From assembly GCF_000829055.1 (NCBI RefSeq), contig NZ_AP012544.1, forward strand, positions 2,852,001 to 2,916,000: a stretch of 64,000 bases of DNA, given 5' to 3'. The stretch comes from Lacticaseibacillus casei DSM 20011 = JCM 1134 = ATCC 393 (GTDB lineage Bacteria > Bacillota > Bacilli > Lactobacillales > Lactobacillaceae). The notes under the pieces are model-generated. The model was not told the origin of the DNA. It ran no database searches and saw only the letters and a program-made list of their open reading frames with translations. The position numbers and the translations under genes were made by a program. Each line of letters opens with the position of its first letter. Positions within the stretch are counted from its first letter, which is position 1. Positions 12,239-28,779 of this stretch are shown piece by piece.

Positions 12239-12246
12239 GCTGTTAA

Positions 12247-12501
12247 TTAGTGCATTTTATAGTCGAGCAAAAGGCTTATCAGTAGCAATAAGCTACAAAT
12301 AAATGATGCAGCTTGCAGTGAAATTGAATCCTTCATAATCAGCATTCCCACAATGATCAGAATAATTTGGATCACCGCAACAATGATCATAAAAGTTCGA
12401 TTGTACCGCCCCAATCGCGTGGTGACTTTCTGCTTACGGGTTAACCAAATGATGATCAATACTAAAACAATCGTTAGTAAATTCCAAACTGTTGTAAGCA
12501 T
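12247..12501 (-). CDS. Small membrane protein with three predicted spans
   Basis: 84 residues, almost entirely hydrophobic: spans at about 4-20, 36-55 and 64-80 with a short basic loop (TRKQKVTTRLGRYNR). AGGAGG lies upstream of the ATG. It belongs to the leader gene set of the conjugation region. No family recognised; entry exclusion or immunity are possible roles for such proteins but nothing in the sequence proves it. Confidence 0.55.
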   Translation of the reverse strand: MLTTVWNLLTIVLVLIIIWLTRKQKVTTRLGRYNRTFMIIVAVIQIILIIVGMLIMKDSISLQAASFICSLLLLISLLLDYKMH

Positions 12502-12552
12502 TGTGCACGCCTCCTTTTGATCATATTAAAGCCATTTGTGCCTTTACAGCAA

Positions 12553-12590
12553 CGAAAAAGTCCCGACTGCATTAGGTAACAGTCAGGACT
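12553..12590 (-). terminator. Intrinsic terminator after the small lipoprotein gene
   Basis: An 11-base stem (AGTCCTGACTG with CAGTCGGGACT, one G-T pair) is followed by T5 on the minus strand. The TGA stop of the lipoprotein gene is within the stem. Confidence 0.8.
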
Positions 12591-12681
12591 CTGTGGAGAT
12601 GGTAAACGTTTGACACCCACATCCGGCTAAAAGTAACCCTGACACTAAAATGATTCCACCCGTTTTTACCATCATTTTCAT
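12583..12681 (-). CDS. 32-residue lipoprotein
   Basis: MKMMVKTG, then a hydrophobic core (GIILVSGLLLAG), then a cysteine in a lipobox (LLAGC), so the mature lipoprotein would be only about a dozen residues. AGGAGG is located nine bases before the ATG at 12681. It is too short for routine gene finders, but the signal peptide, lipobox, ribosome binding site and terminator all agree. Small lipoproteins occur in T4SS loci (VirB7 in Gram-negatives) and in entry exclusion; either role here is speculation. Confidence 0.6.
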   Translation of the reverse strand: MKMMVKTGGIILVSGLLLAGCGCQTFTISTES

Positions 12682-12719
12682 TTGTTTCAGCCTCCTATTT
12701 GGCCTCTTCTTATGCGTGG

Positions 12720-12995
12720 TTATAGCAAATTGCTATCAATGACAAGGACTCTTGGCGCTACTTCCTGTTGTAAGGTTTGCTTTTCTTTTTCAATTAAAGC
12801 ATCACGAAAGTCTGCTAAGTCATGCGCTTCAAGCGTTATATCGGCTGCACGCGTCAGAGAAACTTCATGAGGATTTAATTCATCAAAAGCGTTGTCAATT
12901 TCCCCTTTGTAAATTACAATGGCTTCTTCTGGGCTATTAGCTGAAATCAATGCATAATAATCATGATCTTCAGTTCTAAACTCATAGAATCGCAT
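12720..12995 (-). CDS. Hypothetical protein of the conjugation-region leader
   Basis: 91 residues, acidic and soluble, beginning MRFYEFRTEDHDYYALI. AGGAGG lies eight bases before the ATG, and the start overlaps the end of the preceding gene by 14 bases, which suggests a real coupled gene. The segment SANSPEEAIVIYKGEID recalls small alpha/beta proteins of mobile elements, but no function can be assigned. Confidence 0.55.
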   Translation of the reverse strand: MRFYEFRTEDHDYYALISANSPEEAIVIYKGEIDNAFDELNPHEVSLTRAADITLEAHDLADFRDALIEKEKQTLQQEVAPRVLVIDSNLL

Positions 12996-13212
12996 GATGA
13001 TTGCCTCCTATTCGCCATTCCTTAACTGGATGTTGTTGGCGATACGCCCATTCCTGCTCTGGTAATTCCGGTTTAAGCTCCTCAGTTTCTCCTGGTCTTA
13101 AAGCCGTCATGTAATACCCATGATCAACAAAAGTATAACGCACGCCCTTTTCCAAATGTGGTAGAGTCTTCCCCACACCATTAACAAAAGGGACTTTTGT
13201 CTGTTTAAGCAC
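12982..13212 (-). CDS. Hypothetical protein of the conjugation-region leader
   Basis: 76 residues from a GTG at 13212 with GGCGGTGAG upstream. Soluble and Glu/Pro-rich in its second half. It overlaps both neighbours by a few bases, consistent with one transcript. I do not recognise it. Confidence 0.5.
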   Translation of the reverse strand: MLKQTKVPFVNGVGKTLPHLEKGVRYTFVDHGYYMTALRPGETEELKPELPEQEWAYRQQHPVKEWRIGGNHHAIL

Positions 13213-13412
13213 ACAAACTCACCGCCTTCACACTTGATCCTAATACCCCATGTCGTACGACGATTCGTTGATCGGTCTTGCTTTCTGCTAAGATCTCAAT
13301 CCATTCACGTTGTCGTACCGGATCGTGGTCATATAACCGTCGCGCCCGATCATAAGTTGCGTAATCAATACTCGTCAGCCGATGTTGTTGCATAAACACA
13401 AGTAACTGGTCC
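13205..13412 (-). pseudogene. Hypothetical leader gene truncated by IS30 insertion
   Basis: The frame RDQLLVFMQQHRLTSIDY and onward (about 70 codons) is a plausible coding region, overlapping the next start by eight bases. Its 5' end is replaced by the IS30 element at 13413-14461: an ATG near the IS end (ATG CAA TCT AGG) now opens the frame. The missing 5' part is not visible elsewhere in the window. Confidence 0.6.
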
Positions 13413-14461
13413 CTAGATTGCATAATTAAAGTTACCACCCAGAAAATGTGAAAAAAGACCTGTCCGTTCTTGCTAAAATGGTGTTTGCATAACATACCAT
13501 CTAGAGAGAAGGACAGGTCCCATGGCCATTATAACCTTAATTGAACGATCTCAGATAGAACTGATGCAACACCACACGATTCAATACATCGCCGCGACCT
13601 TAGGCCGCTCTCGTATTTCTATTAGGCATGAGCTTCACCGTTGCCCTGAAGGTGATTACTGCGCCATTATAGCTCAGGATCATGCCGATACTTGTCGGCA
13701 TCGTTGTGGTCGGCACTCGATTTTAACGCCTAAGTTGAAGCGGATGGTAACTGAGAAGCTAAACCTGGGTTGGTCCCCTGAAATGGTCGGTTATGCCGTT
13801 CACTGTGCGCCACACACGATTTACCACTGGATTTATCAAAGACAAGTCGATTTTCAGCCAAGCCAACTCTTTGATCACGGTAAACGTCATAAAAGAAGAC
13901 AAGACCTTCGGTCGCGCTATAACCAAGCAGTAGGCACCTCAATTGAGATTCGCAGTGAGTCAGCTAATCGGCGAACCGAAAAAGGACATTTAGAGATGGA
14001 TACAGTTCGCGGTGGTCGCGGGTCAAAGGCTGCTGTTTTGACCATTGTCGATCGGGTGACACGTTTAATGGCGACAACTAAGCTTGAAAACTTATCACAA
14101 AATGCTGTTCTCAAGGGATTTGCAAGACTGATGGTGGACTTTCCGGGTCCGGTTCGATCAGTGATGGTTGATCACGGTAAAGAGTTTTCCTGCGATCAGG
14201 CGCTTACAAAGCGCTATCGGATACCGGTTTACTTTTGCCACGCCTATCACCCGAATGAACGGGGCACAAATGAACGGTTCAATCGAGAACTTCGCTACTA
14301 TTTCCCGAAGGGAACACACTTTGATCAGGTTTCAGAGACCGATATTCAACAAGCCACAGCGCTTATCAATAACAAACCTAGAAAATGTCTCCGTTGGCAA
14401 ACCCCAGTTCAAGCAGTGAGCAAGCCTCTTTCTAGGTGGTAACTTTATTATTGCAATCTAG
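13413..14461 (+). mobile_element. IS30-family insertion sequence, type A, copy 1
   Basis: About 1,049 bp bounded by imperfect inverted repeats that begin CTAGATTGCA and contain AAAGTTACCACC. A copy of the same length and structure lies inverted at 24026-25074. The flanks of copy 1 (TCC left, GCA right) do not form a direct repeat, which suggests rearrangement after insertion. It separates the conjugation region from a histidine kinase fragment. Confidence 0.9.
13522..14442 (+). CDS. IS30-family transposase (type A, copy 1)
   Basis: 306 residues with an N-terminal helix-turn-helix (YIAATLGRSRISIRHEL) and a DDE catalytic core: first Asp in LEMDTVRGG, second in VMVDHGKEF, and Glu in NERGTNERFNRE. 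IS30 transposases cut and join via circular or dimer intermediates and often target sites resembling their own ends. The length matches intact IS30 transposases. It differs from copy 2 at a handful of residues (for example Met versus Thr before VDHGKEF). Confidence 0.93.
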   Translation: MAIITLIERSQIELMQHHTIQYIAATLGRSRISIRHELHRCPEGDYCAIIAQDHADTCRHRCGRHSILTPKLKRMVTEKLNLGWSPEMVGYAVHCAPHTIYHWIYQRQVDFQPSQLFDHGKRHKRRQDLRSRYNQAVGTSIEIRSESANRRTEKGHLEMDTVRGGRGSKAAVLTIVDRVTRLMATTKLENLSQNAVLKGFARLMVDFPGPVRSVMVDHGKEFSCDQALTKRYRIPVYFCHAYHPNERGTNERFNRELRYYFPKGTHFDQVSETDIQQATALINNKPRKCLRWQTPVQAVSKPLSRW

Positions 14462-15365
14462 GCAATGACAACAATCGCAACACAGTATGAAGTGGCGATC
14501 AAGGATATGCTCTTTTGGTTTATTATTTTGCTGGCCATTAATTTCATCAGCGAAGCTTTGTCTTTAGCTGTTTTCAGATCAATCACAGCGGCATCTTATG
14601 GCCCTCAGAGATTCATTTTTGCGATTGCCACGACGAGCATTTCGATGATGCTGGAAGTTTTAATGATTTTCGGACTTAAGTTGGTGTTTTTCCGGAGCCA
14701 AATGTATCTGGAATCGTTAAAACTTCCGGTACTGCTGGCTTTAACGTCAATTCCGCTTGTCTCGATAGGCGTTCTATTCAGCTTTTTAATGGCGAACATC
14801 AATACTTCCGTTCATTCACCTTATTTTGTATTAATGATTGCAGTAGGCGTTTTGTACATGAACCTTTGTGGTCTATATTTATACGGAAGTTTGACGAAAC
14901 ACTTACGACAAATCAATCAGATTACATTACAAAACAAGTAGCTTTCTTTTGAAAGAAAATATCTCACTGAATTGAAAAAGTCACAAGATCAGCTTGCGGC
15001 AATGCGTCATGATTTGAAAAATCAATATATCGTATTGCTTGGGCTATTGGAGAAGAAGCGTGTTGGAGACGCAAAAAGATATCTTTCAAAGTCTACAGAT
15101 AGGCTGAATATGCAACAAAAGTTTTATACACGCGATGTTGTTCTAAATTATTTATTAAACGACAAGCGAGACCTTGCTGACAAGGCGGGGATTAGGTTTG
15201 ACATCAAGGTGTTGCTTGCCGAACAAATAAATGTCGATAACGATGTTTTGGCTATTTTGATTGGCAATCTGCTTGATAATGCTCTTGAGGCGTCTAGGAG
15301 ATTAGGAGACAGCCGTTCTGCAAAAATCTCACTGGTTATTAAGCAGTTTGACAATAAATTGCTAA
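14462..15365 (+). pseudogene. GHKL-family (AgrC-like) histidine kinase, central/C-terminal fragment
   Basis: One continuous frame from GCA at 14462. It encodes several membrane spans, an in-frame TAG at 14939-14941, then the dimerisation motif MRHDLKNQYI with the phospho-acceptor His and the N-box LIGNLLDNALEAS. The 3' end (G-box region) is lost at the type B IS30 element. The 5' end is the IS30 type A copy 1. The missing N-terminus lies 11.6 kb away at 26082-26288 on the minus strand, directly after the response regulator, and joins in frame across a shared GCA. The gene is therefore broken by rearrangement, a nonsense codon and an IS. Confidence 0.8.
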
Positions 15366-16625
15366 CGTAAATTGCAAGAACAAGTTAGCCAGTCGTTGAG
15401 GACAATCCCAGAACAGGCCGTTATCAAATAGAAGTTGTGGCGCTAGAGAGACTACTGGGCCATGCGGCGAACGCGCCGAGCTTCGGCCTCAAAGTTTTGC
15501 TGGGGTGTGCAGTAGCCCTGTTGTTTGCGAGGCAACTGATTCAAGCGGTCTTGCGTGGCCTGCACTTGACTAGGGCTAATGTCATCTAGGGACATGCCCT
15601 TAGGGAAGTCCTGGCGAATCATCCGGTTATGTGCCTCGTTGGTGCCACGGTCGCAGGACGTGTAAGGATGGGCGTAGAAGATCTCAGTTTCCGTCCCAGC
15701 AAAAGCAGTATTTAAGGCGGTGAACTCGGGTCCGTTGTCGGCTGTGATGGTCTTGATGCAAGCTCCCCATTCGCGCTTGATTCCACGCAATGCATAGCTC
15801 ACAGAGTCTGCATCTCGTCCTTCGATCAAGCGGAGAAGTTGGCAACGGGTCTTGCGCTCAATCAGAGTCAAGATGACGCTCTCCTTGCCATTGCGTTTAC
15901 CGACAATGGTATCCATCTCCCAGTGACCGAACTGCCTGCGTCGTTCAACGACCTTAGGCCGTTCCTCGATACTGCGGCCAGCCAGGCGCTTAGCCTTGGT
16001 GTGGTGCTGGTGAGAGGTCTTCCGCTTAGTCTTCTCCAACAGGTCGATATTTCGAATCTCTAGGCGTTGGTCGTCAATGTACTGGTACAAAGTCGAGGCA
16101 CAAACAAGCTCTTCAGGAGTAAACAGCTTGTGTCGCTTGGCATAGCCGATTGAAGCATCCGGCGACCATTTGTCCTGCTTAGCTCGCTGTACGTACCAGG
16201 CTAAGAAGACCTGTACGCTGGCGAACTTGTCAGGACGATGGCAGCTCAAGCGTGCAGTCTCGTAACGTGCCTGAGCAGCCTCTGGCAGGTATTGTCGATG
16301 GTAGACGCGCTTGCCATTACTCTTCTTGACCTGATCTACTGTACCTCGCTTGATTTCATTATTAATGGTCTGCGGGCAGACGCCAATTTCAGCAGCAATC
16401 CAACGATTGGACTTCCCAGCTTGGCGGAATCCGGCCACTTTTCCGCGCTCGAGTGATGTTAAGTGCTGACCTTTTTGGCGGTGTGTGCTATCCTGTTTCT
16501 GCATCAAGACAATATCCTCTTCCATTGTTTGTGTAGGAACTTCAATGATACAGGATATCTGTTCTTGATGTTTTTTATTGTCCAAAAAATTTTGAGACAG
16601 TGGCTAACTTGATTCTAAAATGCGC
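15366..16625 (-). mobile_element. IS30-family insertion sequence, type B, copy 1
   Basis: About 1,260 bp shared almost base for base with 53299-54558 in the same orientation. The ends carry the imperfect inverted repeat AAGTTAGCCA a dozen bases in. Exact ends are uncertain by a few bases because both copies share CG at their borders. It truncates the histidine kinase on its left and an IS3 element on its right. Confidence 0.9.
15452..16585 (-). CDS. IS30-family transposase (type B, copy 1)
   Basis: 377 residues: an N-terminal helix-turn-helix (WIAAEIGVCPQTINNEI) and a DDE core with HWEMDTIVGKRNG, TADNGPEF and RGTNEAHNRM. It is longer than type A by about 70 residues at the N-terminus, a form known in lactobacilli. 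It differs from copy 2 at one visible residue (Ala versus Val after EAAQ). Confidence 0.92.
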   Translation of the reverse strand: MDNKKHQEQISCIIEVPTQTMEEDIVLMQKQDSTHRQKGQHLTSLERGKVAGFRQAGKSNRWIAAEIGVCPQTINNEIKRGTVDQVKKSNGKRVYHRQYLPEAAQARYETARLSCHRPDKFASVQVFLAWYVQRAKQDKWSPDASIGYAKRHKLFTPEELVCASTLYQYIDDQRLEIRNIDLLEKTKRKTSHQHHTKAKRLAGRSIEERPKVVERRRQFGHWEMDTIVGKRNGKESVILTLIERKTRCQLLRLIEGRDADSVSYALRGIKREWGACIKTITADNGPEFTALNTAFAGTETEIFYAHPYTSCDRGTNEAHNRMIRQDFPKGMSLDDISPSQVQATQDRLNQLPRKQQGYCTPQQNFEAEARRVRRMAQ

Positions 16626-16866
16626 GTACGACAAAGAATTCAAACAAAACATTATCAACCTATATAAGCAAGGCGAATCAGCTGCCCAAATGGCCAGAGA
16701 ATATGGCATTGGCTATTCAACAGTTCATAAGTGGATCCAGGGCCAGGCCAAAACTCAATCCGGTAAATCGCCAGACGAAATCAAAGCGATGGAAAAGCGA
16801 CTGGCTTCGCTGTCTGAGGAGAACGAAATCCTAAAAAAAGCCCTAGGCTTTCTTGCGCAGAAGTAA
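16600..16866 (+). pseudogene. IS3-family (IS150-like) OrfA, 5' end lost
   Basis: The frame from 16626 on reads YDKEFKQNIINLYKQGESAA followed by a helix-turn-helix and a leucine-rich coiled segment (SLSEENEILKKALGFL), typical of IS3-family OrfA. The first codons shown come from the end of the adjoining IS30 element, so the native start and left IS3 end are missing. Confidence 0.8.
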
Positions 16867-17866
16867 CCAATATCTTTGATTACATTCACCAAGAAAGCCA
16901 TCACCACCAGGTAACCAAGATGTGCCGAATCCTCGGTGTTTCCAGAGCTCAGTATTATCGTTATCGATCCCCCAAACCTTCAAAACGCCGGGCCGAAGAT
17001 GCGGGCTTGAAACAACGGATTCTGCGGATCTTTGCGGAATTTAAGCAGCGATACGGTGTTATGAAGATCCACCATGAATTGAATCTGGAACTTCAACCAC
17101 TGCAGCTTCGGTGCAGTCCACGACGGATTTCCCGGCTCATGAAGGAACTGGATATCCACTCCGTTACCGTCAATAAGTGGAAAGCGGCTTCGGCTTCCAA
17201 AACCAAGGTTGAACAGCGTCCCAACTTGCTTAAGCAGGATTTCTCGACCACTGGTTTAAATCAAAAATGGACCGCTGATATGACCTATATTCAAACGAAG
17301 CGTAATGGCTAGTGTTACTTATCAACCATCATGGACCTGCACTCACGACGGATTATCGGCTATTCGTTCTCAAAAAAGATGGATACTGATTTAGTCTTAA
17401 AGACCCTTGAAAGCGCGGTTAAAAATCGAACCATTACTGGGGACCTGATTATCCATACGGATTTAGGATCACAGTATACCAGCGATGATTACAATCAACG
17501 TTTAACTGAGCTACATATCCGCCACTCATACAGCCGTAAGGGTTGTCCGTATGATAATGCGCCAATGGAATCCTTTCACGCTTCCCTCAAAAAGGAATGT
17601 GTTTATCCAGTGCCGGTCTTTGAAGATTATGAAACTGCCGCTGCCGTCCTTTTTGAATATGTGCATGCTTTTTACAATAGGAAGAGAATTCATAGTTCAC
17701 TGGGCTACCAGACCCCCTTACAAGTTGAAATTGCAACACTTACGAGCCAAATGGCCGCCTGATTTAATGCTTTCCAGGGTTCAAATAAGTTATTAATCGC
17801 GATTAATGATTTATTTGAGCTGTGGAAGGTAAACGCGGTTCTGAATGTCTCTTAAAATCTGTCTCA
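16626..17866 (+). mobile_element. Truncated IS3-family (IS150-like) element
   Basis: Contains OrfA and OrfB remnants. The left end is removed by IS30 type B copy 1. The right end lies around 17860, where it is itself inserted in an older IS30 gene whose C-terminal part continues at about 17871. The right boundary is inferred from where the second IS30 reading frame begins. Confidence 0.7.
16863..17762 (+). pseudogene. IS3-family OrfB transposase with in-frame TAG
   Basis: The frame carries an HTH_21-like region (MKIHHELNL), the DDE motifs (WTADMTYI; HTDLGSQYTS; the closing Glu of NAPMESFHASLKKE) and the C-terminal NRKRIHSSLGYQTP. A TAG at 17310-17312 replaces what is normally a Trp codon in this family (consensus GWxYLS), and the frame continues unchanged to 17762. 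It is presumably inactive unless suppressed. Confidence 0.85.
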
Positions 17867-17870
17867 AATA

Positions 17871-18449
17871 TTGACTTCAATCCACGTTGACCATCGATCC
17901 AAATATAATCAATCTTTGGGGCGATCAATTGAACAGCGTCCCATGATGATTAATCAACGTAAGCGCATCGGCGATTTTGAACTAGATACAGTCGTTGGTC
18001 CTCGTGGGCATAGTAAGGAAGTTTTATTAACTTTAATCGATCGCAAATCACGGTTCCCTTGGGCATACCGGTTAAAAGATCGGACGACAGCGACTGTTAA
18101 TGAAGCACTAACTAAGTTCCTAACCACTTTTAATGGTCCGGTGCACAGCTTTACTGTGGACCGTGGCACTGAGTTTAGTGGGCTAGTATCACTTGAATCA
18201 CAATATGGTATTAAGACCTATTATTGCCATGCTTATACTCCAGCTGAACGTGGTAGTAATGAACGCTTTAATCGGAATTTACGTTATTTTTATCCTAAAG
18301 GGACTCGTTTTGAGCACATTAGTGCTCAAGATTTAACGACGACGTTACTCCAAATTAACCAGCGACCGCTTAAAATACTCGACTGGCAAACACCGTATCA
18401 GGTTATGCTGATAAATTTGTCCAAAAATTCGGATTAAATTTGCAATCTA
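17871..18449 (+). pseudogene. IS30-family transposase, C-terminal remnant
   Basis: About 188 codons with the DDE motifs FELDTVVGPRG, TVDRGTEFS and RGSNERFNRNL. The N-terminal third is absent, removed where the IS3 element begins. It is a third IS30 type, distinct from A and B. An IS end (TTTGCAATCTACC) follows the stop. It is a relic of an older insertion. Confidence 0.85.
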
Positions 18450-18477
18450 CCCTACGAACAACTCGTAGTCCATCAGT

Positions 18478-19227
18478 TTAATTTTTTTTAGTTGTTGTGC
18501 GCCGGCGGATCACGTGAATAATCAACGTCACAATAATCGCTCCCACTACCAGCAACCCAAACAAGGTGGCTGGAATCTCAATATCAATCGCTGGAATTGA
18601 AATAAAGAGCTTCACAGCAATCAAGGCAATTAAGATGTAGGCCATTGGTTCCAACTCCGGAATCTTCTGCATGAGGCGCATAATAACTTCGGCGACTCCC
18701 CGCATGGCCAGAATCCCAATCAGTCCCCCGATTAGCACAATGACTGGATTAGACGAAATAGCTAACGCTGCTAAGACTGAATCCACCGAGAAAATAATAT
18801 CCATCATTTCAATTTGAAGCACGACGGCCCAAAACAAGGGCAACCATCGATGTTTCTTTTCTGAAGCTAACTTACGGGTATGCTTGACTCGCGTCCGGGT
18901 AAAGAATTGAAAGACCAAGTACAATAGGTATAATGCACCAATGACTTTAATTTCCCAGAAATGAATCAAATACGTTCCCAATCCAATGATAACAAACCGG
19001 AAAAAGTAAGCCCCCCAAATACCATAAAACAATGACTTTTCCTGCTGTTCACGAGTAGGTAGTGACTGCGTTTGCGCGGCTAGAACCACGGCATTATCAA
19101 CTGACAAAAGGCACTCAATTAAGACCAATGAAAAGATAATCAGCCAATCGTCGCCTGAGGTAATCACGGTTTCCCAATTATGGAGATCAAAGAACGGTCC
19201 GTACAATTGACCCAAAAAGTGTAACAA
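18478..19227 (-). CDS. TerC-family integral membrane protein
   Basis: 249 residues with about seven membrane spans. The two family motifs are present: ECLLSVDNAVVLA near residue 40 and EMMDIIFSVDSVLAA near residue 145, each with acidic residues inside the membrane. TerC/YkoY proteins export manganese or other divalent metals, or insert with secreted metalloproteins. The start is a TTG with AGGAG 12 bases upstream, which is weak support. I saw no yybP-ykoY riboswitch upstream. The gene is flanked by IS remnants on both sides, so it is probably imported cargo. Confidence 0.85.
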   Translation of the reverse strand: MLHFLGQLYGPFFDLHNWETVITSGDDWLIIFSLVLIECLLSVDNAVVLAAQTQSLPTREQQEKSLFYGIWGAYFFRFVIIGLGTYLIHFWEIKVIGALYLLYLVFQFFTRTRVKHTRKLASEKKHRWLPLFWAVVLQIEMMDIIFSVDSVLAALAISSNPVIVLIGGLIGILAMRGVAEVIMRLMQKIPELEPMAYILIALIAVKLFISIPAIDIEIPATLFGLLVVGAIIVTLIIHVIRRRTTTKKN

Positions 19228-19464
19228 TGCTTGCTTCAGCTCCTTCAGATATTAATTTTTGCTGGATTTAATGTACCATATTCCCCATTAACTTGCGATT
19301 GATTCTACTAATTTTCCGTAAGTCAGACGTGAGGCGACTGGTAACATTTCACACCATTTTTCTCAAGTTATTAAAAAAGTTACCAAAACGCTACGCTTCT
19401 GTTACCTGTTCGCAACTAAGCCGCGTTACCATGAGGACATTAAAAAGAGGGAAAGGGATTTTAT

Positions 19465-20926
19465 GGGTCTACACTTTCTGGTGTTGAGAAATAATCAACA
19501 CTGAACGTATAGGCCCTTTTTGGATAACGCAAAAAGACACCTACTCAGTGTCCATGCTATGCTTGTTAGCGTCGAAACCAAAAGCAAGCGAGGTTATGAG
19601 TAAATGTCCCAATACGATCCTACACTGTCCGCCCTTGGAATACCAGACCATAATATCAAAGTAGCCTTTGTTCGTCATGAATATCGCGGCAACGGGGTAC
19701 GTCGCCGCCAGTATCATGTGATTGATGCCGAGCTGACTTACCGGTTAACCCGGTGCCCACTGTGTGGCTTTGAGGCCTTGCACCCTAACGGGTTTTACAC
19801 GGCCCACGTGCGCGTCCTCAACGGGGTTGAAATGCCGACAGTCATTGACTTGCACAAGCAACGATGGCGCTGTCATAACTGTTACCACACAGTCAGTGCC
19901 AAGACGCCACTCGTGCAACCCAACCACACGATCGCCGCTCACATGACAGAACGAATCATGAAGTTAGCGCATGAACGGTTGCCAGTCAAAACCATCGCCC
20001 GTATTATCGGAATCTCAGCCTCCTCGGTTCAACGGATCATTGACCAAAATCTCAAACTCCGACCGGCTCGCCGGCTACCCACGCGACTCTGCTTTGATGA
20101 GTTCCGTTCCACTCATGGCATGATGTCGTTTATCTGTCTTGATGCCGATTCACATCGTCTGATTGCCTTGCTTGGTGACCGATTCAACCGCACGATTAAA
20201 AACTTCTTCATCGCTCATTATTCACTCGCTGAACGCACTCGGGTCCAGACGGTCACCATGGACATGAATGCAGCTTATCAGACGATTATTCATGAGGTTT
20301 TCCCCAAGGCCCAAGTCGTCATTGATCGGTTCCATATCATTCAACTTGCGGCTCGTGCCCTTGATCAGGTACGCGTCCAAGCGCTCAAACAGCTTGATGA
20401 CAAGCACAGCCGTCCTTATAAGATCATGAAGACAAACTGGCGGCTTTTTCATCAAACTGCGCCTGACGCTAAACACAAACAGTTCCTGTTTGGTTTGAAT
20501 GAAGACGTCACGCAACAGGAGGCCATCGATATCGCACTTGATACTGAGCCCAAGCTCAAGCAAACCTACGAGACCTACTTAGCGCTTCATGATGCTTTGA
20601 TGGTGAAGAAACATCCCGCGGAACTGGCAAACCTGTTAGCTACTTACGAGCCAAACGGTACGGCAATGGACATGACGATCGCGACGCTTAAGCGACACAA
20701 AGTCGCTGTTCTCGCCGCTGTCACCAGCCCTTATTCCAACGGTCCGATCGAAGGGGTTAACCGCCTCATCAAGTCACTCAAACGATCCTGTTTTGGCTTC
20801 AAGAATCAGCTGAACTTCTTCAAACGAATCTACCAAATCACGGCATAACATGACAAAGACGGCTCCCCAAATGGAGAACCGCCTCAAATGATAAATTTAT
20901 TCTTCAACACCAGTTGACGTAGAGCC
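19465..20926 (+). mobile_element. ISL3-family insertion sequence
   Basis: About 1,462 bp with terminal inverted repeats of the pattern GG.TCTAC.....CTGGTGTTGA followed by AATAA. The eight-base flanks (GATTTTAT and GAATTTGA) are not identical, so a target duplication is not evident. It contains one complete transposase gene. Confidence 0.88.
19604..20848 (+). CDS. ISL3-family transposase
   Basis: 414 residues. An N-terminal zinc-finger-like set of cysteines (RCPLCGF; WRCHNC) precedes a helix-turn-helix (IARIIGISASSVQRII) and the DDE core (CFDEFRS; TMDMNAAY with VIDRFHII; the last Glu in NGPIEGVNRLIKSLKR). The length is usual for ISL3 transposases such as those of lactobacilli. Confidence 0.92.
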   Translation: MSQYDPTLSALGIPDHNIKVAFVRHEYRGNGVRRRQYHVIDAELTYRLTRCPLCGFEALHPNGFYTAHVRVLNGVEMPTVIDLHKQRWRCHNCYHTVSAKTPLVQPNHTIAAHMTERIMKLAHERLPVKTIARIIGISASSVQRIIDQNLKLRPARRLPTRLCFDEFRSTHGMMSFICLDADSHRLIALLGDRFNRTIKNFFIAHYSLAERTRVQTVTMDMNAAYQTIIHEVFPKAQVVIDRFHIIQLAARALDQVRVQALKQLDDKHSRPYKIMKTNWRLFHQTAPDAKHKQFLFGLNEDVTQQEAIDIALDTEPKLKQTYETYLALHDALMVKKHPAELANLLATYEPNGTAMDMTIATLKRHKVAVLAAVTSPYSNGPIEGVNRLIKSLKRSCFGFKNQLNFFKRIYQITA

Positions 20927-21217
20927 GAATTTGAAGGACTTATGGTACATCTCCATGCTCCACCAATACATCTTGATGGCAACTATAAAAAATTGACAAT
21001 ATTGTAAGTTAGTTCACTATACATCATCCGGACTGTAATGGGAACTAGCAGTTGATATAGTTCTTCATTTGCGAGCGTTTTGATACAACTCAAATGCCCA
21101 TTCAGCTCCACGTACAATGTTAGGCTGCCATTAAAAGATAATTGATCATTATCATAAGATAATACTCAAGTCATTCCAGTGGTGAAAATACTATCGACTG
21201 ATTTTTTGCTATTGAAC

Positions 21218-23920
21218 TTACTTGTTGTAGTAATCGTTGAGCGCTAGAATATATGAACCTGAACCGAAGCCGCCCATTGGAACTGAACCGGCATAGTCTT
21301 GGTTAGTGTAATCTAGTAATTCTGGAATTAGGTAATAATTGTTCTGAGCTTGGCTGGTCATCCAGTCAATCAACGTTTTGGATTCTGAACGATCGCCCAT
21401 TTTAGCCAATGCGCCGGCAATTCGTAAATCAATAAAACCCCATTCACGCGAATCATACAAATCACCGTCTTGATCACGCATAAATCCTGGGGTGCTGCCA
21501 GTTTTGATTCGCAGATATTTGTTGTAACTGGCAATCATTCCTTGAGCTAACGATGAATTCGAGGGAACCAAGCCCTGATTGATGGCCTCAACCGTTGAAC
21601 CATCATTTTCATGTTGACTATCACCTTTGCGTTCTATCGATGAAGCAATAATTTGTTGGCCATCTTCTGTGGTAATCAGGTTCTTCAAAATGCTGGTTTT
21701 CAGCTTGGCTGCAGCTTGGCTATACTTTTGATAGGAATCGTTAAAACCAAGTTTTTGCGCCATATCGGCAGCTGATTGTAGACCTGACCAAGCCGTAATG
21801 TCAGTGAAAGCAAATTGTTGTCTGGCTGGAGCATTTTTCAAAACAGAATATGGCGTCCAATGTTCTTCCCAAATTGAAGAATCTGGCTGAATTAAACCAT
21901 TTTGCTTATTGGCCAATTCGATCAGCAAATCAGCATCTTGAGTTGTGATCTTATACCAATTAGTACTTTTAATATTTTCTTGAATGATTGGCTCTTGCTT
22001 AGCCTTTTCTTTGGTCAATTCGGCTTGCTTAACCTTAAGCCAGTTGCTAGCAGTTTGCTGCTGAGCATTTGCATTGACTAAAGCCGACTTGGCAGTCTTG
22101 ACCTGGTCCTTAGCTGTAGTTAGCTGTTGCTGGGCTTGGGCAATCACTTGGTTTTGCTTGTTGAGTTCTTTAGTTAACTCTGCTTGTTTAGCAGTTAACC
22201 AAGCCTGAGCTTTTTGTTTGTCCTGGGCAGTTTTTGCGTGTCGTAAAGTTTGTTTGGCAGCTTTAACAATTCCTTGTTTGCGTTTGATCCAACCCTTTGC
22301 TGTATTAATCGTTGTTTTGGTCGTCTGCTTAACTTGCTCTTCTTTAGCTTTGGCAGTCTGATAGGTGTTCTTAGCGGTTACAGTGGTCTGTTTAGCTGTC
22401 GTCAATCCTTGATTTGCACTATCAACAATTTGTTGTTTGCGGCTAATCCATTGTTGAGCTGTCAGCACCTGTTGATTGTTCAAAAGGAAACTATAGTCAT
22501 GCGTCTGATTAATATAATCATCTAAAACCCATAGGACTAAGCCCCAACCGTCAAATTCAATGTTCGGACCATTGTCATTATAATCAGAGTCCTCGCTGCC
22601 ATCACCAAAATAGCGACAGACTGACAAAAGATAGTTTGAACTCAATTTAGTGTTCAGTCCATAAATTGGAGCTGAAGTATTATTACTTTCAATATAATTT
22701 TTCTGGAAGTAATTCGTCCCATCGCTGTTTTGCTTCGTCTTAGCATTCAAGAAAAAGTTCAAGGCTTCCTTGGCTTCTTGGTAATGCCCCGAGTCAATTA
22801 AGGCTTTAATCGAGTAAGAACCATCGCGAACCCAAGCAATGCTCCATTCGCCTGGAATTAAACTGGCTAGAACCTGACCATAACCTTCGCTCTTTTCTCT
22901 AACCTGCGACATTTTCAAGACAGCAGTTGACTGGCGATAAGTCTGAGTTTCTTGCGAGTTTAGTCCTTTAGGCATCCGTTCTTTAGCGTGCCAATTTTGC
23001 CACCAATTTTCTTCCTGCTGCAAAATTGCGGCCGGCGATCCCTGCAAAGATGTTTGAGCATTACTATCGACCGTTTGACTTAATTGATTTTCATTACCGT
23101 CTTCTCGCAGACCAATTTCAACCCCAAACCATTGACTCTGACCAGCTGAAATTTGAATATTTTTGTTCTCAAACCCATTGACTAGGTCATCACCCTTGCT
23201 CTGAATAGAATTATTCAAGTTACTGTTGCTCTGCAAATAGTTGACTGGTGTCTGATTTTGGTTACCAGTTTGATAGAGCTGATTTTGTGAATTCAGGTTC
23301 TTATAAATCGCAAAGCTGCCAGTTTGAGCGTTGAATTCTTTAATATAGTTGTTAGACGAATTATAGCTTGTCTCTTCGTCCTTTGTCGCGTAGTCTGTAC
23401 CAAGATGCAAGTTCTGCTGTGAAAATAATGAAACATTTCGAGTCGGACCATTATTAGTCACCTTGACCAACATATACATGATTGAGGAACTGCCATCATC
23501 CGTGCCGGAAAATGGTGTGAAGTAATAGCTGTCAAAAGTAAGCTGATCATGGTGTTGGACCGAATGAATGATATTAGTGCCATTAATATATTCTGCTTGA
23601 TCAACTGCAAGATTATTCAACCAAACAGTTTTGTTATTGTTAACTTGGTAGCCAAAATAGGCGTCATAAAGATAGTTAGGTGTTGTACTACCATCTTTTT
23701 CATGTGAAAAAATGTGGTGTTGGAGACGAATCAGCTTCGCATCTTTTTTTGAATAAATGCCAGCACAAATTCCATTTGAAGTTGTCAATTGATCCCATGA
23801 GTTGTGCCCAGTATAACTAGAGTTGGTATCTGCTAATACCTTTCCACCGCCAAATAAAAACGTAAGACAAAAACTCGTCAAAAATACTTTAAACATAAAT
23901 TTTACGCTGCGCAAATTCAT
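21218..23920 (-). CDS. Secreted GH15 glucoamylase-like enzyme with a helical repeat insertion
   Basis: 900 residues from the ATG at 23920, which follows a G8 run and begins a signal peptide ending near KVLADT. The N-terminal beta-sandwich-like domain (about 30-290) precedes an (alpha/alpha)6 barrel with GH15 marks: AWVRDGSYS (362-370), the catalytic acid region SIWEEHW (682-688) and IPELLDY (about 866-872), the probable catalytic base. Family members release glucose from alpha-glucans or dextrans. A Lys/Gln/Ala-rich segment of about 160 residues (487-647) with four W[IL]xxKQ units interrupts the barrel. There is no cell-wall anchor motif. It is flanked by ISL3 and IS30 elements, so transfer is likely. 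The exact substrate is not resolved. Confidence 0.8.
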   Translation of the reverse strand: MNLRSVKFMFKVFLTSFCLTFLFGGGKVLADTNSSYTGHNSWDQLTTSNGICAGIYSKKDAKLIRLQHHIFSHEKDGSTTPNYLYDAYFGYQVNNNKTVWLNNLAVDQAEYINGTNIIHSVQHHDQLTFDSYYFTPFSGTDDGSSSIMYMLVKVTNNGPTRNVSLFSQQNLHLGTDYATKDEETSYNSSNNYIKEFNAQTGSFAIYKNLNSQNQLYQTGNQNQTPVNYLQSNSNLNNSIQSKGDDLVNGFENKNIQISAGQSQWFGVEIGLREDGNENQLSQTVDSNAQTSLQGSPAAILQQEENWWQNWHAKERMPKGLNSQETQTYRQSTAVLKMSQVREKSEGYGQVLASLIPGEWSIAWVRDGSYSIKALIDSGHYQEAKEALNFFLNAKTKQNSDGTNYFQKNYIESNNTSAPIYGLNTKLSSNYLLSVCRYFGDGSEDSDYNDNGPNIEFDGWGLVLWVLDDYINQTHDYSFLLNNQQVLTAQQWISRKQQIVDSANQGLTTAKQTTVTAKNTYQTAKAKEEQVKQTTKTTINTAKGWIKRKQGIVKAAKQTLRHAKTAQDKQKAQAWLTAKQAELTKELNKQNQVIAQAQQQLTTAKDQVKTAKSALVNANAQQQTASNWLKVKQAELTKEKAKQEPIIQENIKSTNWYKITTQDADLLIELANKQNGLIQPDSSIWEEHWTPYSVLKNAPARQQFAFTDITAWSGLQSAADMAQKLGFNDSYQKYSQAAAKLKTSILKNLITTEDGQQIIASSIERKGDSQHENDGSTVEAINQGLVPSNSSLAQGMIASYNKYLRIKTGSTPGFMRDQDGDLYDSREWGFIDLRIAGALAKMGDRSESKTLIDWMTSQAQNNYYLIPELLDYTNQDYAGSVPMGGFGSGSYILALNDYYNK

Positions 23921-24025
23921 GTTTTCCCCCCCCTTATTTAAAATATTAGGATTAATGACAATGTTTGTGTGAAAATGAAAAAAAAGTGGTACCATTCTTC
24001 TACTAAAGCTATAGCATATTGATGC

Positions 24026-25074
24026 CTAGATTGCAATAATAAAGTTACCACCTAGAAAGAGGCTTGCTCACTGCTTGAACTGGGGTTTGCCAACGGAGAC
24101 ATTTTCTGGGTTTGTTATTGATAAGCGCTGTGGCTCGTTGAATATTGGCCTCTGAAACCTGATCAAACTGTGTTCCCTTCGGGAAATAGTAGTGAAGTTC
24201 TCGATTGAACCGTTCATTTGTGCCCCGTTCATTCGGGTGATAGGCGTGGCAAAAGTAAACCGGTATCCGATAGCGCTTTGTAAGCGCCTGATCGCAGGAA
24301 AACTCTTTACCGTGATCAACCGTCACTGATCGAACCGGACCCGGAAAGTCCACCATCAGTCTTGCAAATCCCTTGAGAACAGCATTTTGTGATAAGTTTT
24401 CAAGCTTAGTTGTCGCCATTAAACGTGTCACCCGATCGACAATGGTCAAAACAGCAGCCTTTGACCCGCGACCACCGCGAACTGTATCCATCTCTAAATG
24501 TCCTTTTTCGGTTCGCCGATTAGCTGACTCACTGCGAATCTCAATTGAGGTGCCTACTGCTTGGTTATAGCGCGACCGAAGGTCTTGTCTTCTTTTATGA
24601 CGTTTACCGTGATCAAAGAGTTGGCTTGGCTGAAAATCGACTTGTCTTTGATAAATCCAGTGGTAAATCGTGTGTGGCGCACAGTGAACGGCATAACCGA
24701 CCATTTCAGGGGACCAACCCAGGTTTAGCTTCTCAGTTACCATCCGCTTCAACTTAGGCGTTAAAATCGAGTGCCGACCACAACGATGCCGACAAGTATC
24801 GGCATGATCCTGAGCTATAATGGCGCAGTAATCACCTTCAGGGCAACGGTGAAGCTCATGCCTAATAGAAATACGAGAGCGGCCTAAGGTCGCGGCGATG
24901 TATTGAATCGTGTGGTGTTGCATCAGTTCTATCTGAGATCGTTCAATTAAGGTTATAATGGCCATGGGACCTGTCCTTCTCTCTAGATGGTATGTTATGC
25001 AAACACCATTTTAGCAAGAACGGACAGGTCTTTTTTCACATTTTCTGGGTGGTAACTTTAATTATGCAATCTAG
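24026..25074 (-). mobile_element. IS30-family insertion sequence, type A, copy 2
   Basis: Same length and ends as 13413-14461 but inverted, with a few nucleotide and residue differences, so it is not a very recent duplicate. Flanks are TGC on the left and GAT on the right, again without a direct repeat. It lies about 105 bases upstream of the GH15 start and could influence its promoter. Confidence 0.9.
24045..24965 (-). CDS. IS30-family transposase (type A, copy 2)
   Basis: 306 residues with intact helix-turn-helix and DDE motifs as in copy 1. Substitutions against copy 1 cluster in the last third (VTVDHGKEF, RELHYY, TQFDQVSEANIQRAT). Apparently full-length and possibly active. Confidence 0.92.
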   Translation of the reverse strand: MAIITLIERSQIELMQHHTIQYIAATLGRSRISIRHELHRCPEGDYCAIIAQDHADTCRHRCGRHSILTPKLKRMVTEKLNLGWSPEMVGYAVHCAPHTIYHWIYQRQVDFQPSQLFDHGKRHKRRQDLRSRYNQAVGTSIEIRSESANRRTEKGHLEMDTVRGGRGSKAAVLTIVDRVTRLMATTKLENLSQNAVLKGFARLMVDFPGPVRSVTVDHGKEFSCDQALTKRYRIPVYFCHAYHPNERGTNERFNRELHYYFPKGTQFDQVSEANIQRATALINNKPRKCLRWQTPVQAVSKPLSRW

Positions 25075-25273
25075 GATTTTTCCTCCCTAAATCATTCAAG
25101 GTATATGATTTTCTGCATATATGCCAACAGTACTTCTAAAAATGCTAATTCATGTTGGTGGTATAATCATTTCAATTGACCAAGATCTAAAAGTGTAAAC
25201 CATTCGGAAGTATAAACGTCAATATTTTCCCGTAGATGTCTAATTGAAATGTGCCTTACACTTTTATAGCAAA

Positions 25274-25747
25274 CTATGCCCTCAAGTAAGAAATCAAAAA
25301 TATTAATGCAGTGCCAAAGTCTCGAAAAATTAAAATTAGCGCTTTCGCTACAAAGGTAAGTTCCGGCAATCCGCTATTCATTTTTCTTCTTATCTGTTGT
25401 GTATAATAGGATGCACCAAAGTTAAAAAAAGCAAAAAAGAAGAAGAAAATTGTATCAATTAGGTAGATAACTGGAGCACTTGAAAAATTGGTCGTTATCG
25501 CACCTAATGAGAATACAACGATGAAAAAGTACCAGACAATAACAATGTTGTAAATATGATTAAAGAGATGATTTGACTCATCTGTGGTAAATCTTTGCAT
25601 TTGCTTCCTAGCTTCTAAATAACTTTCACTTGTATATTTTTCTTCTCGCAGCAATGCACTTTTTTGTTTTCCCCTACTAATTGAAACAATTGCAGACGAT
25701 AGTAGCCAGATAAAAACCATGCCAATGAAAGGCATATAGACATCCAT
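25274..25747 (-). CDS. Membrane protein with about four spans, unknown function
   Basis: 157 residues from the ATG at 25747, with AAAGGA 11 bases upstream (an upstream in-frame ATG lacks a site). One span lies near the N-terminus (about 5-25), a polar segment follows, and then three spans (about 66-86, 92-112, 132-155), the second rich in Phe. It is isolated between IS30 type A copy 2 and the split histidine kinase. No family recognised. Confidence 0.55.
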   Translation of the reverse strand: MDVYMPFIGMVFIWLLSSAIVSISRGKQKSALLREEKYTSESYLEARKQMQRFTTDESNHLFNHIYNIVIVWYFFIVVFSLGAITTNFSSAPVIYLIDTIFFFFFAFFNFGASYYTQQIRRKMNSGLPELTFVAKALILIFRDFGTALIFLISYLRA

Positions 25748-26081
25748 ATATTGTAATTCCTTTCTCCAGCCATTTTCTATACATGAGCTAAAGACACGGT
25801 GGCATCCCGCTGCCATTCGGCCTGTTCACAATTAAATATTGGGTACATTAAACAAAAGAACTTCCATTTTGTTGAGTGGGACTTTAGATGCCTCTTAATC
25901 TCATACTGACATCAGGTAATACTTGCTTAACGGTATACTAAAGCTTGCAAAAAATCCATACGGCACTTATCACATTTTATGCGTAGTTAAGCCGTGTTAA
26001 GCGATCTCACCATTTCGCAAAAGAAACGTTTGTTTTTTCTTGAATCAAGCTATCTAAGATAATAGCCCAAAATCCCTAGAT
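25748..26081. other. Intergenic stretch with an IS30-end-like sequence
   Basis: No coding region seen. At 26075-26085 the plus strand reads CCTAGATTGCA, identical to the terminal bases of IS30 type A although no IS follows. It marks the breakpoint of the histidine kinase gene. Confidence 0.5.
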
Positions 26082-26288
26082 TGCAATTAGTGTGACAACG
26101 AGATTGATGAAGGGTTCGACACTAGACGGAGCAACATACGAGGTTACCGCAACAATCGCCGCCAAACCTGCCAATGTCATCATCCAGATAAGTGATCACC
26201 TTTCGGAAACCGACCAACTTGCAAAAAAGAAGCTCAAAAGAAACACGTAGATTAGAAAACTGCACATCCTAATAACAGCATCGATCAT
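26082..26288 (-). pseudogene. GHKL histidine kinase, N-terminal fragment
   Basis: The ATG at 26288 overlaps the response regulator stop (ATGA). The frame encodes a first membrane span (FLIYVFLLSFFFASW), an in-frame TGA at 26196-26198, then SLIWMMTLAGLAAIVAV and on to LVVTLIA, where homology stops at an IS30-end-like sequence. The continuation (MTTIATQYEVAIKDML) lies at 14462 on the other strand, in the same frame and sharing GCA at the junction. This reconstructs the sensor partner of the adjacent regulator. Confidence 0.75.
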
Positions 26289-26992
26289 AACTTACTCCTC
26301 ATTTGCATGATGATTTTTTCCCTTGCGATGTTGCGAAATTTCCTACTGACGGGGACTTCCACGGATGTTGAAGTTTCAGACAAAATGATATAGCCAGCGC
26401 CAATTTCTTTAATAAACTTAGTGTTGATAACATAGGACGTATGCACTTGAACAAAGTTATCATTTAACTTTCCCAGCAGCTCCGACGTCGACATAATCAC
26501 CTGATATTGCTGTTTCTTGTCATGAATGATAACATTACGTCTCTGCTTTTCAAAACAGATAATATCAGAAAGTTTTAAACGATATGTCTTCTTCCTGTGT
26601 GAAAACGAGAAATACTCATCATCCAATTCCAAATATTTAACTACTTTTCTAAGGACGGGAAAGATCTTCTCTTTAGTTATAGGCTTGAGAATATAGTCGA
26701 AGGTTTGCACTTGGAAAACATCTTCCATATATTCCACATAATTGGTGAGAAAGACAATTGGGACATTTAAGTCTTGTTCTCTGATAGCCTTAGCAATATC
26801 GATTCCTGAAGAGGTCGGCAATTCAATATCTAAAATAAAAAAGTCATAACGCTGTTTTTGCAGTGATGAAATTAACGCGTCAGCACTAAAGAATACCGCA
26901 ACATCAAATAGCGCTGAATCGAATACTCTCAGCGTTTCTTCGATGTTCCCCGTTATTTCAGGCGCGTCGTCACAAACTGCAACCTTAATCAT
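26285..26992 (-). CDS. AgrA-like response regulator (LytTR DNA-binding domain)
   Basis: 235 residues. The receiver domain carries the acidic pocket near residues 8-9 (VCDDAP), the phospho-acceptor Asp in FFILDIELP (about 54) and the conserved Lys of ILKPI. From about residue 130, a LytTR DNA-binding domain is seen (ICFEKQRRNVIIH; FVQVHTSYVIN). Such regulators respond to peptide pheromones via GHKL kinases. The kinase gene that should follow is broken, so signalling through this pair is probably lost. No AgrB/AgrD genes are in the window. Confidence 0.9.
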   Translation of the reverse strand: MIKVAVCDDAPEITGNIEETLRVFDSALFDVAVFFSADALISSLQKQRYDFFILDIELPTSSGIDIAKAIREQDLNVPIVFLTNYVEYMEDVFQVQTFDYILKPITKEKIFPVLRKVVKYLELDDEYFSFSHRKKTYRLKLSDIICFEKQRRNVIIHDKKQQYQVIMSTSELLGKLNDNFVQVHTSYVINTKFIKEIGAGYIILSETSTSVEVPVSRKFRNIAREKIIMQMRSKL

Positions 26993-27194
26993 TTTTCCAC
27001 CGCCAAGTATATGTCTATGCGAAACCTTTACTGAGCCCGACTTATTTTGCTCATGTCATCCCGTACCGGATTTTTTCAGTATAGCAAGCCAGGATTTCGA
27101 CCGCAATCTTTCTGGTTTTATAGTATTGCTCGCGAGAAAATAAACAATCCCTTCAAGAACGCTAACCACTGTGTTTATTCAGAGAAACTACATT

Positions 27195-27210
27195 GGTTCC
27201 ACGTGAAACA
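27195..27210. promoter_or_regulatory. Candidate parS (ParB/Spo0J binding) site 1
   Basis: GGTTCCACGTGAAACA matches the Firmicutes parS consensus TGTTNCACGTGAAACA at all defined positions except the first. It lies in the intergenic stretch 26993-27283, which otherwise shows no gene. Confidence 0.65.
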
Positions 27211-27283
27211 CCTTTTGGCCATAAAAATAGACCGATCACAGCCTTCATCGCCGTGAATCGATCCATTTTTATACTATGCAATG

Positions 27284-28141
27284 TCATTTTTGCGACGCGT
27301 CAGGCAACTCCGTTTTCTTGTTCGTGATATCAATAAACTGCGCTTCGCCGACGACAGAATCAACGGCTTTTTGTAGCCGCCGCATTGCTGCACTGGCGAT
27401 TGGTAAGTCGACAAAATCCTTGGTTGCATTGTCCAGCTCGACTTCATCAGCTACGGAATCTTTAAGCGGCCGCGGGTTACTTTCGTCTAAAGCGCGAATG
27501 ACGACTGGCTTAAGTGGGCCCATTTGTAATAAGTCCAAGGTCGTGGCGTAGTCAATGCCATACGCATCGGCAAGATCCAGCGTTTCGCGAATCCCTGCTT
27601 CTGCCGCCATGATCGCGACATTCGTGATCAGTTTAAGCTTGGCGCCATTACCTTGCTCACCAACATATTTAACGGTGCCGAACGTTTTCAGGACCGGAAG
27701 CACCGCGTCAACCGCTTGCTTGTCTCCAGCCGCGATCAGTACCAGGCCAGCTTCACGGGCATATTTCACGCCGCCAATCATTGGCACGTCAAGGAGTTTG
27801 GTGTTTGCCGGCATGACCGCCTGAATGGCCGTAATCTTACGCGGATCCAGCGTGGACGTCACGATAAGCGTGCTGCCGGGCTGCAGATAATGAACAATTC
27901 CGGGCTGCTCAGGGGTACCGATATGCAACGCTGGCACATCATCGGACATGACCGACGTGATCACGACTTTCGACGCGGTTACCGCGTCTTCCAACGATTT
28001 TGCCGCCGTCACGTGCTCTCCTGTCAAAGCTGCCATCTTGGCGGGAACTTTATCCCAGATCACCACGTCATAACCGGCTTTTGCCAGATGCGGTACCATG
28101 TGACTCCCCATATCGCCGACACCAATAAATGTTATTTTCAT
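27284..28141 (-). CDS. NAD(P)-dependent beta-hydroxyacid dehydrogenase (3-hydroxyisobutyrate dehydrogenase family)
   Basis: 285 residues. The N-terminal Rossmann fold opens with ITFIGVGDMGSHMVPHLAKAG (GxGxxG type). The substrate-binding motif is DVPMIGGVKYAREAGL, and the catalytic Lys lies in NGAKLKLITN (about residue 170). The family oxidises beta-hydroxyacids or reduces their semialdehydes (glyoxylate/succinic semialdehyde reductases, tartronate semialdehyde reductase, 3-HIBDH). Length is normal. GGAAGGAAG precedes the ATG. The substrate cannot be told from sequence, and no operon partner is evident. Confidence 0.85.
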   Translation of the reverse strand: MKITFIGVGDMGSHMVPHLAKAGYDVVIWDKVPAKMAALTGEHVTAAKSLEDAVTASKVVITSVMSDDVPALHIGTPEQPGIVHYLQPGSTLIVTSTLDPRKITAIQAVMPANTKLLDVPMIGGVKYAREAGLVLIAAGDKQAVDAVLPVLKTFGTVKYVGEQGNGAKLKLITNVAIMAAEAGIRETLDLADAYGIDYATTLDLLQMGPLKPVVIRALDESNPRPLKDSVADEVELDNATKDFVDLPIASAAMRRLQKAVDSVVGEAQFIDITNKKTELPDASQK

Positions 28142-28380
28142 GTTTTTTCTTCCTTCCCGTTACAAAAACATGCCGCACTGAAAACAGCATATAAAAAACA
28201 CGGTCGTTTCTGACTAATTCAGACACTAAAAAAGTTTTTATCAACTGCTTGCGATCAAAATCAGCATCAATCCGTTCGCACGCCTTAACCTAGCATGATC
28301 ACAAAATGATTTCAATAACAAAGCTCGCGGTGTTCTTGACGCTCATCTCCGAACGCACCTGTTATTGATGCATCCAAAAG

Positions 28381-28779
28381 TCATTCCGGTGCCGTGCCTG
28401 CAACGCGCGTCAAGCTGACCGTCAAGACATTATCGGCAGTCGTGTTGTAATCAGCCAGAATACCCTTCACAATCCCTTTAGAAGGGCCATGGGTTCGCGT
28501 GGTCTCCTCGTAATTTTGAATCCACGTGCTGACAGCATCAAAGCCAAACTCAAAGCCTTCAAAAACCTGCATGTACGCCGAGGAACGCGGATTGGTGGTC
28601 ACAATCGTAATCTTGGTCACACGTCCATTGGCGATCTGCATCGTCAGCTTAATCAAGCCATCATCAAAAAACTTAACGGTGCCGTCTTTAGCCGTTGCCG
28701 GCAACCGATAATCAGCCAGACGCATATTGGCATTGTAAACACGCTGAACATATGCATAACTACCCAGATCTTCGTGCAT
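28381..28779 (-). CDS. Hypothetical protein
   Basis: 132 residues, soluble, with alternating strand-like segments (KLTMQIANGRVTKITIVTTNP) and an end rich in Thr/Val. A modest ribosome binding site (AAAGG) lies upstream of the ATG. I recognise no family. It is a single gene between the dehydrogenase and the TIM-barrel-like gene, on the same strand as both but separated by gaps of more than 200 bases, so it is probably transcribed alone. Confidence 0.5.
   Translation of the reverse strand: MHEDLGSYAYVQRVYNANMRLADYRLPATAKDGTVKFFDDGLIKLTMQIANGRVTKITIVTTNPRSSAYMQVFEGFEFGFDAVSTWIQNYEETTRTHGPSKGIVKGILADYNTTADNVLTVSLTRVAGTAPE

Follow-up and report, generated by a model that had tools for sequence, protein, structure and literature searches.

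A split sensor kinase gene in Lacticaseibacillus casei ATCC 393, probably opened by IS30-bounded plasmid DNA and rearranged by an apparent 58-kb flip between inverted IS30-family copies

The 64,000-nucleotide stretch of Lacticaseibacillus casei DSM 20011 = JCM 1134 = ATCC 393 analyzed here (the window) carries a GHKL sensor kinase gene in two pieces of opposite orientation, one overlapping the gene of a LytTR response regulator and the other 11.6 kb away, between two different IS30-family insertion sequences (ISs). These are IS30A, a 1051-bp element with CCTAG...CTAGG ends and six full copies in the genome, and IS30B, of 1261 bp; their transposases score 221.7 and 247.5 bits, respectively, against the IS30 profile NF033563 (cut-off 80). 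We consider it very probable that a plasmid bounded by IS30A was inserted into the kinase gene, and that a 58-kb segment was then flipped between two inverted IS30B copies, whether in the cell or in the assembly. Positions prefixed C1 refer to contig C1 of this L. casei genome (G000), in which the window occupies C1:2852001-2916000; the features of the window are collected in Table 1.

As judged from their sequence, both pieces belong to one GHKL sensor kinase gene, in which they were neighbors, because they match adjacent parts of a single gene in L. zeae DSM 20178, which has the closest named relative of the regulator (96% identity). At the L. zeae locus (L030), the regulator (10001-10705) is followed by an uninterrupted 434-amino-acid (aa) GHKL kinase (10705-12009). 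Window positions 26080-29997 correspond to L030 10913-6989 at 94.8% identity, and window positions 14462-15382 correspond to L030 10909-11827 at 96.6% identity on the opposite strand, with the same break point. A preliminary description of the window had already seen in the open reading frames (ORFs) that the regulator gene is overlapped by a kinase start (26285-26288) and had placed the missing kinase part at 14462 on the opposite strand, where the L. zeae match does continue from the same point. It had also predicted that joining the pieces would restore LVVTLIA-MTTIA within an uninterrupted kinase beside the regulator in relatives, naming as counter-evidence any homolog that did not continue LVVTLIA with MTTIATQ. 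Eleven loci with a kinase beside the same regulator were found and three were opened, the kinases there measuring 427–434 aa; all three intact homologs continue LVVTLIA with MTTIA, as LVVTLIAMTTIALHHE in L. zeae, LIAMSTIATHYE in Enterococcus durans, and LIAMITIASQYD in Secundilactobacillus kimchicus. An origin of the pieces from two different kinase genes is rejected, as both adjoin in one L. zeae gene and L. zeae 11000-15600 matches the L. casei genome at one place only.

On the evidence of the reading frame, these pieces cannot yield a working kinase. The rebuilt product had been described as normal, but IS30B has removed its last ~65 residues: by arithmetic from the alignment, the IS30B start at 15366 falls at about residue 369 of 434, inside the GHKL domain, whose Pfam match (HATPase_c_5) spans residues 331–422 of the L. 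zeae kinase. The window therefore holds no kinase complete to the end of the GHKL ATPase domain, the gene being in two pieces with two stops and ~65 C-terminal residues missing. Both stops, a TGA and a TAG, were correctly reported before, and the L. zeae gene has sense codons at both positions. With the gene split, twice stopped, and lacking its C-terminus, the earlier view of a dead sensor holds, and the regulator appears to have lost its partner kinase; the regulator frame itself is open, with 16 synonymous and nine replacement codon differences from L. zeae among 235. Six of 278 protein matches were read. By eye, P0004 (351 aa) is the closest of the six to the window 3' piece and has a sense codon at the TAG position. 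Because the first kinase part is missing from it and its last ~20 residues look frame-shifted, it does not prove that L. casei has an intact allele.

The break point bears the mark of an insertion. The kinase 5' piece ends in ...TTGCAAT, the 3' piece beside IS30A copy 1 begins with CAATGACA, and L. zeae has a single GCAAT there. Since CAAT stands at both ends of the break and only once in L. zeae, we conclude that the gene was probably opened by an insertion bounded by IS30A; CAAT has the same length (4 bp) as the identical flanks found at three of the six IS30A copies (ATTC, GTTT, and CATG). On the 3' side, plasmid backbone up to 13411, IS30A, and CAAT follow one another, and on the 5' side CAAT adjoins a 5-bp IS30A remnant and then segment b. 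The preliminary description had counted 11 bases of the IS30 end at this break. The 5 bp CTAGG (- strand) next to CAAT stand; the longer match is only apparent, produced by ATTGCAAT, a sequence that the target has in common with the IS30A right end. CTAGG may be the remnant of a lost IS30A copy, left by a deletion between these 8-bp repeats of the target and the IS30A right end. As to the name of the element, identification of IS30A with ISLpl1 is rejected: on the plasmids, the genes that coincide with IS30A bear the label "IS30 family transposase", and the name ISLpl1 belongs to another gene close by.

The DNA at this insertion is largely plasmid-like. Matches to window positions 1-13411 occur in 39 plasmid records; in 12 of these, no less than 80% of the query is found in one place, and the 12 listed have identities of 92.6–96.3%. 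Taken with the 20 kb on its left, this stretch keeps to the order of the L. paracasei plasmid pLPC100_p1, with interruptions, C1:2825593-2865411 corresponding to plasmid positions 43089-3271. In plasmids L080 and L081 the sequence continues past the site of IS30A copy 1. Between 17.9 and 24.0 kb, genes for TerC, an ISL3 transposase, and a GH15-like protein are also plasmid-borne, and most of 17.9–25.1 kb matches plasmids. Segment b has a 75% match in one of 29 other genomes of the genus, and its ORF has seven relatives, all without a name. Sequence resembling L. zeae resumes at C1:2804596 and then at C1:2798960, leaving a foreign block of ~73 kb between the kinase and the neighboring chromosome.

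Evidence for the larger rearrangement comes from the target duplications of IS30B. At least 53 full near-identical copies are present in the genome (one genome search scored 40 of its 84 candidates, another 40 of its 105), and flanks were examined for 53. An exact 13-bp target duplication was found at 30 of these; six of the remaining 23 are halves of three tandem dimers with 2-bp spacers. The window copy lacks a target duplication of its own. Its right 13 bp, TACGACAAAGAAT, recur as the left 13-bp flank of the IS30B copy that lies inverted at C1:2807844-2809104, 58 kb away. Across 2756 ordered pairs of IS30B copies there were four exact cross matches, from three copy pairs, all of them inverted; a control with 812 mispaired flanks, offsets included, gave no match longer than 11 bp. 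The same IS30B pair splits an IS3 element, the 5' end of which (106 bp, including the shared 13 bp) lies inverted at C1:2809105-2809210, 58 kb from the rest; in three other copies in the genome the two IS3 arms are contiguous with a 13-bp overlap. The exchanged IS30B flanks and the split IS3 element are therefore the mark of an inversion of C1:2809105-2867365 (58.3 kb). With this flip undone on the coordinates, both kinase pieces have the same orientation, and the 3' piece lies, by arithmetic, across an insertion of ~68 kb from the 5' piece, on the side of the L. zeae-like chromosome; an 11.6-kb inversion is then unnecessary. Of the eight L. zeae-matching blocks, the five that were listed then stand in descending order; two further blocks, on the right, keep to this order, and the last one (228 bp, 77%) breaks it.

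Several observations weigh against this history. The IS30A copy expected at the kinase 5' piece is absent and must be postulated as lost, and IS30A copies 1 and 2 lack matching duplications, so that earlier rearrangements are needed. The precursor plasmid is unseen: segment b found only a 38-bp match in the plasmid collection, and of a 7.9-kb query covering the plasmid rep/par region only the last ~0.5 kb matches the L. casei genome. The reciprocal flanks of the IS30B pair, AATAAATTGCTAA and GCTGAAAACTAAT, match neither each other nor any of the 53 examined copies, which would be explained by deletion of the kinase end beside the window IS30B. Exchange on both flanks is seen at another inverted pair, C1:15496-16756 and C1:25238-26498, where both 13-bp duplications (AACAAAAAATCTG and TTGACAATTTTAT) have changed places, the full mark of an 8.5-kb inversion or assembly swap; the window IS30B pair, unlike this one, shows no such double exchange. 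Finally, the order of the L. zeae blocks does not choose, as the 11.6-kb flip proposed in the preliminary description also gives descending order. Because block order fits both flips, the deciding evidence is the divided 13-bp duplication together with the IS3 element.

The 58-kb flip may be recombination in the cell or an assembly swap, and the exchanged flanks fit both. If the swap were an error of assembly at IS30B, the kinase halves would lie in the same orientation ~68 kb apart in the cell, and the history would otherwise be as above. The abundance of 1.26-kb near-identical copies (at least 53) would favor such an error, as would the 5.9-fold Sanger reads from which, according to an excerpt of PMC3792948, the published L. 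casei ATCC 393 chromosome was built; three inverted pairs have exchanged flanks, one of them on both sides, and assembly swaps would give the same pattern. However, the same excerpt reports finishing with gap closing and re-sequencing, and 30 of the 53 copies have correctly paired flanks, so such errors would not be general. We regard an assembly error as unlikely, though to be reckoned with.

Much less probable is the 11.6-kb inversion of the preliminary description, between the IS30A right end at 14462 and an IS30A-end-like kinase target at 26081. What survives of that proposal is a single gene with halves in opposite orientation and an involvement of IS30; the 14462/26081 inversion by IS30A does not. 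Re-inverting this stretch does join both kinase pieces in one frame, the target shares its 8 bp with the IS30A end as noted above, and an excerpt of PMC9333248 states that IS30 makes inversions and inserts next to its own ends. Yet the model also needs an IS30A copy at 26.08 kb, since lost, where only 5 bp (26075-26079) are present; undoing it turns the two IS30B copies into direct rather than inverted repeats, and it accounts neither for the 13-bp duplication that two IS30B copies have in common over 58 kb nor for the interrupted IS3 element. An equally remote candidate is a 9.6-kb inversion between the extant IS30A copies (13412-14462 and 24025-25075), following entry of a small IS30A-b-IS30A composite into the kinase gene. 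These two copies are inverted and 99% identical, and a flip between them yields the arrangement 5' piece-CAAT-b-IS30A-CAAT-3' piece, in which the duplications match. Against this, the CATC junction at which IS30A copy 2 meets its left-hand neighbor gene is common to plasmid pLPCN-1 and a contig of G009, which we take to be the L. zeae DSM 20178 genome, and so looks old rather than new, and the IS30B and IS3 evidence is again unaccounted for. Both IS30A inversions are rejected for failing to account for the division of the IS30B duplication and of the IS3 element.

Returning to plasmid insertion followed by the 58-kb flip, we propose the following sequence of events. A conjugative plasmid of the L. 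paracasei type carrying IS30A would have integrated into the kinase gene, duplicating CAAT, so that ~68 kb of inserted DNA came between the 5' piece, still next to the regulator, and the 3' piece. The IS30A copy at the 5' piece would later have been lost, leaving CTAGG. IS30B would have entered the 3' piece, and the kinase C-terminus and the neighboring transporter genes, which are absent from the genome, may have been removed by deletion. Recombination between the two inverted IS30B copies would then have flipped C1:2809105-2867365 and returned the 3' piece, reversed, to 11.6 kb from the 5' piece, separating the 13-bp duplication as observed; the two stops would represent further decay.

Table 1. 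Features of the window that bear on the broken kinase gene (window positions)
Feature	Position	Strand	Remarks
Conjugative-plasmid backbone	1..13411		coupling protein 4300-6759 etc.; 96% to L. paracasei pLPC100_p1; homology continues left to C1:2825593 with interruptions
IS30A copy 1	13412..14462	+	1051 bp; plasmid backbone (GGTC) left, kinase 3' piece (CAAT) right
Kinase 3' piece (HKC)	14463..15365	+	starts with CAAT (14463-14466); TAG 14939-14941; truncated by IS30B ~65 residues before normal end
IS30B copy	15366..16626	-	1261 bp; transposase ORF 15452-16585 (-); proposed breakpoint of 58-kb flip
13-bp target duplication TACGACAAAGAAT	16627..16639	+	other copy beside IS30B at C1:2807844-2809104
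IS3 3' part	16627..17884	+	1258 bp, cut by IS30B; 5' end inverted at C1:2809105-2809210
925-aa protein, weak GH15 match	21218..23995	-	borne on pLPCN-1 ("family 15 glucoamylase")
IS30A copy 2	24025..25075	-	1051 bp, no target duplication
Segment b	25076..26074		180-aa ORF 25274-25816 (-)
Putative IS30A remnant	26075..26079	-	CTAGG = last 5 bp of IS30A right end
Kinase 5' piece (HKN)	26080..26288	-	69 codons; TGA 26198-26196; ends in CAAT (26083-26080, -)
LytTR response regulator	26285..26992	-	235 aa, open ORF; Response_reg and LytTR domains; 96% to G009/L030 regulator

Turning to the surroundings, genes resembling ATP-binding cassette (ABC) transporters adjoin the regulator-kinase pair in L. 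zeae, E. durans, and S. kimchicus. Their families were checked by profile in L. zeae only, where the best NCBIfam matches of the two neighboring ABC ATPases were a lantibiotic-protection family for one and a daunorubicin-resistance ABC family for the other, both far below cut-off. Nothing in the L. casei genome matches L. zeae 11828-15600, where the end of the kinase gene and the ABC-transporter genes lie, and within L. zeae 12010-20705 only two short stretches match it, at C1:2804082-2804596 and C1:2803197-2803336. Among the plasmid-like sequences, the DNA at 21218-23995 is 98–99% identical to an L. paracasei plasmid and to a contig of G009. To the left of the window, C1:2825593-2836348 is 99% identical to pLPC100_p1 43089-32322, where a lactose phosphotransferase system (PTS) operon lies, and C1:~2816937-2825373 matches, at 99.5–99.8% identity, Tn3-type transposon DNA with arsenic genes that several lactobacilli carry on plasmids.

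The three head-to-tail IS30B dimers lie at C1:86427-88950, C1:120309-122832, and C1:2289962-2292485, with spacers GT, TT, and AT, respectively. An inverted IS30B pair at C1:343140-346058 (343140/344798) has one divided 13-bp duplication, CTTTTGATTTTTA, and marks an inversion of ~0.4 kb. The IS30B copy at C1:1874034-1875307, which adjoins a full copy, consists of two oppositely oriented parts and is possibly inverted within. Beyond this genome, a 13-bp duplication was found at two of four near-identical copies from other species, both in genome G019, and at neither the G001 nor the G025 copy; three more distant copies (72–74% identity) gave no long flank match, one of the three being partial.

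Plasmid integration, IS-to-IS inversion, and pseudogenes are known kinds of change, and the case as a whole is one of ordinary gene decay, although with an unusually clear record of how the kinase gene was broken. Its least ordinary part is the 13-bp duplication, long for an IS30-family element; in searches of the open-access literature we recognized none that describes 13 bp for this family. An excerpt of PMC2516522 mentions an NTG duplication and an unrelated 13 bp, and PMC12016507, on an IS5-family element, was left aside. A more far-reaching picture, toward which we are skeptical, would make IS30B an IS30-family element with an unusually wide, 13-bp staggered cut that retains head-to-tail dimers in the chromosome; its 53 or more near-identical copies would cause large pieces of the genome to flip, and a single culture would contain the 58-kb plasmid part both ways round, as read from the exchange of 13-bp tags. 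The locus also illustrates that what invites reading as a small inversion can be a side effect of a far larger one that reaches beyond the window, and that the 13-bp duplications of IS30B serve as barcodes for rearrangements, or assembly swaps, of the chromosome of this strain. For users of the strain, the kinase is dead and a conjugative-plasmid segment with a lactose PTS operon resides in the chromosome.

In comparison with known systems, the genes form a LytTR regulator/GHKL kinase pair, AgrA-AgrC-like by the name given to a relative in one source. The pair, with Response_reg, LytTR, and GHKL domains (the last identified in L. zeae), is intact in the relatives, whereas the window kinase is broken, and relative to the L. 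zeae pair the L. casei genome has no match for the stretch from about residue 369 through the ABC genes. As in IS-mediated plasmid integration through a cointegrate, an IS links plasmid backbone to a chromosomal gene, here on the side of the kinase 3' piece, and a target duplication is present; the differences are that one boundary IS is reduced to 5 bp and that rep/par is absent from the genome except for the last ~0.5 kb of the query. As in genome inversion between inverted IS copies, a target duplication is divided between near-identical inverted copies, here with a split IS3 element, and no difference in kind is seen; the match is confined to one flank pair out of two, however, and an assembly swap also fits. 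Escherichia coli IS30, known for dimers, minicircles, cointegrates, and inversions, makes a 2-bp target duplication according to the excerpt of PMC9333248, compared with 4 bp for IS30A and 13 bp for IS30B; the 2 bp characterize E. coli IS30 and do not serve as a fixed family criterion. The same excerpt describes dimers as transposition intermediates of E. coli IS30, and the three IS30B tandem dimers with their 2-bp spacers look alike.

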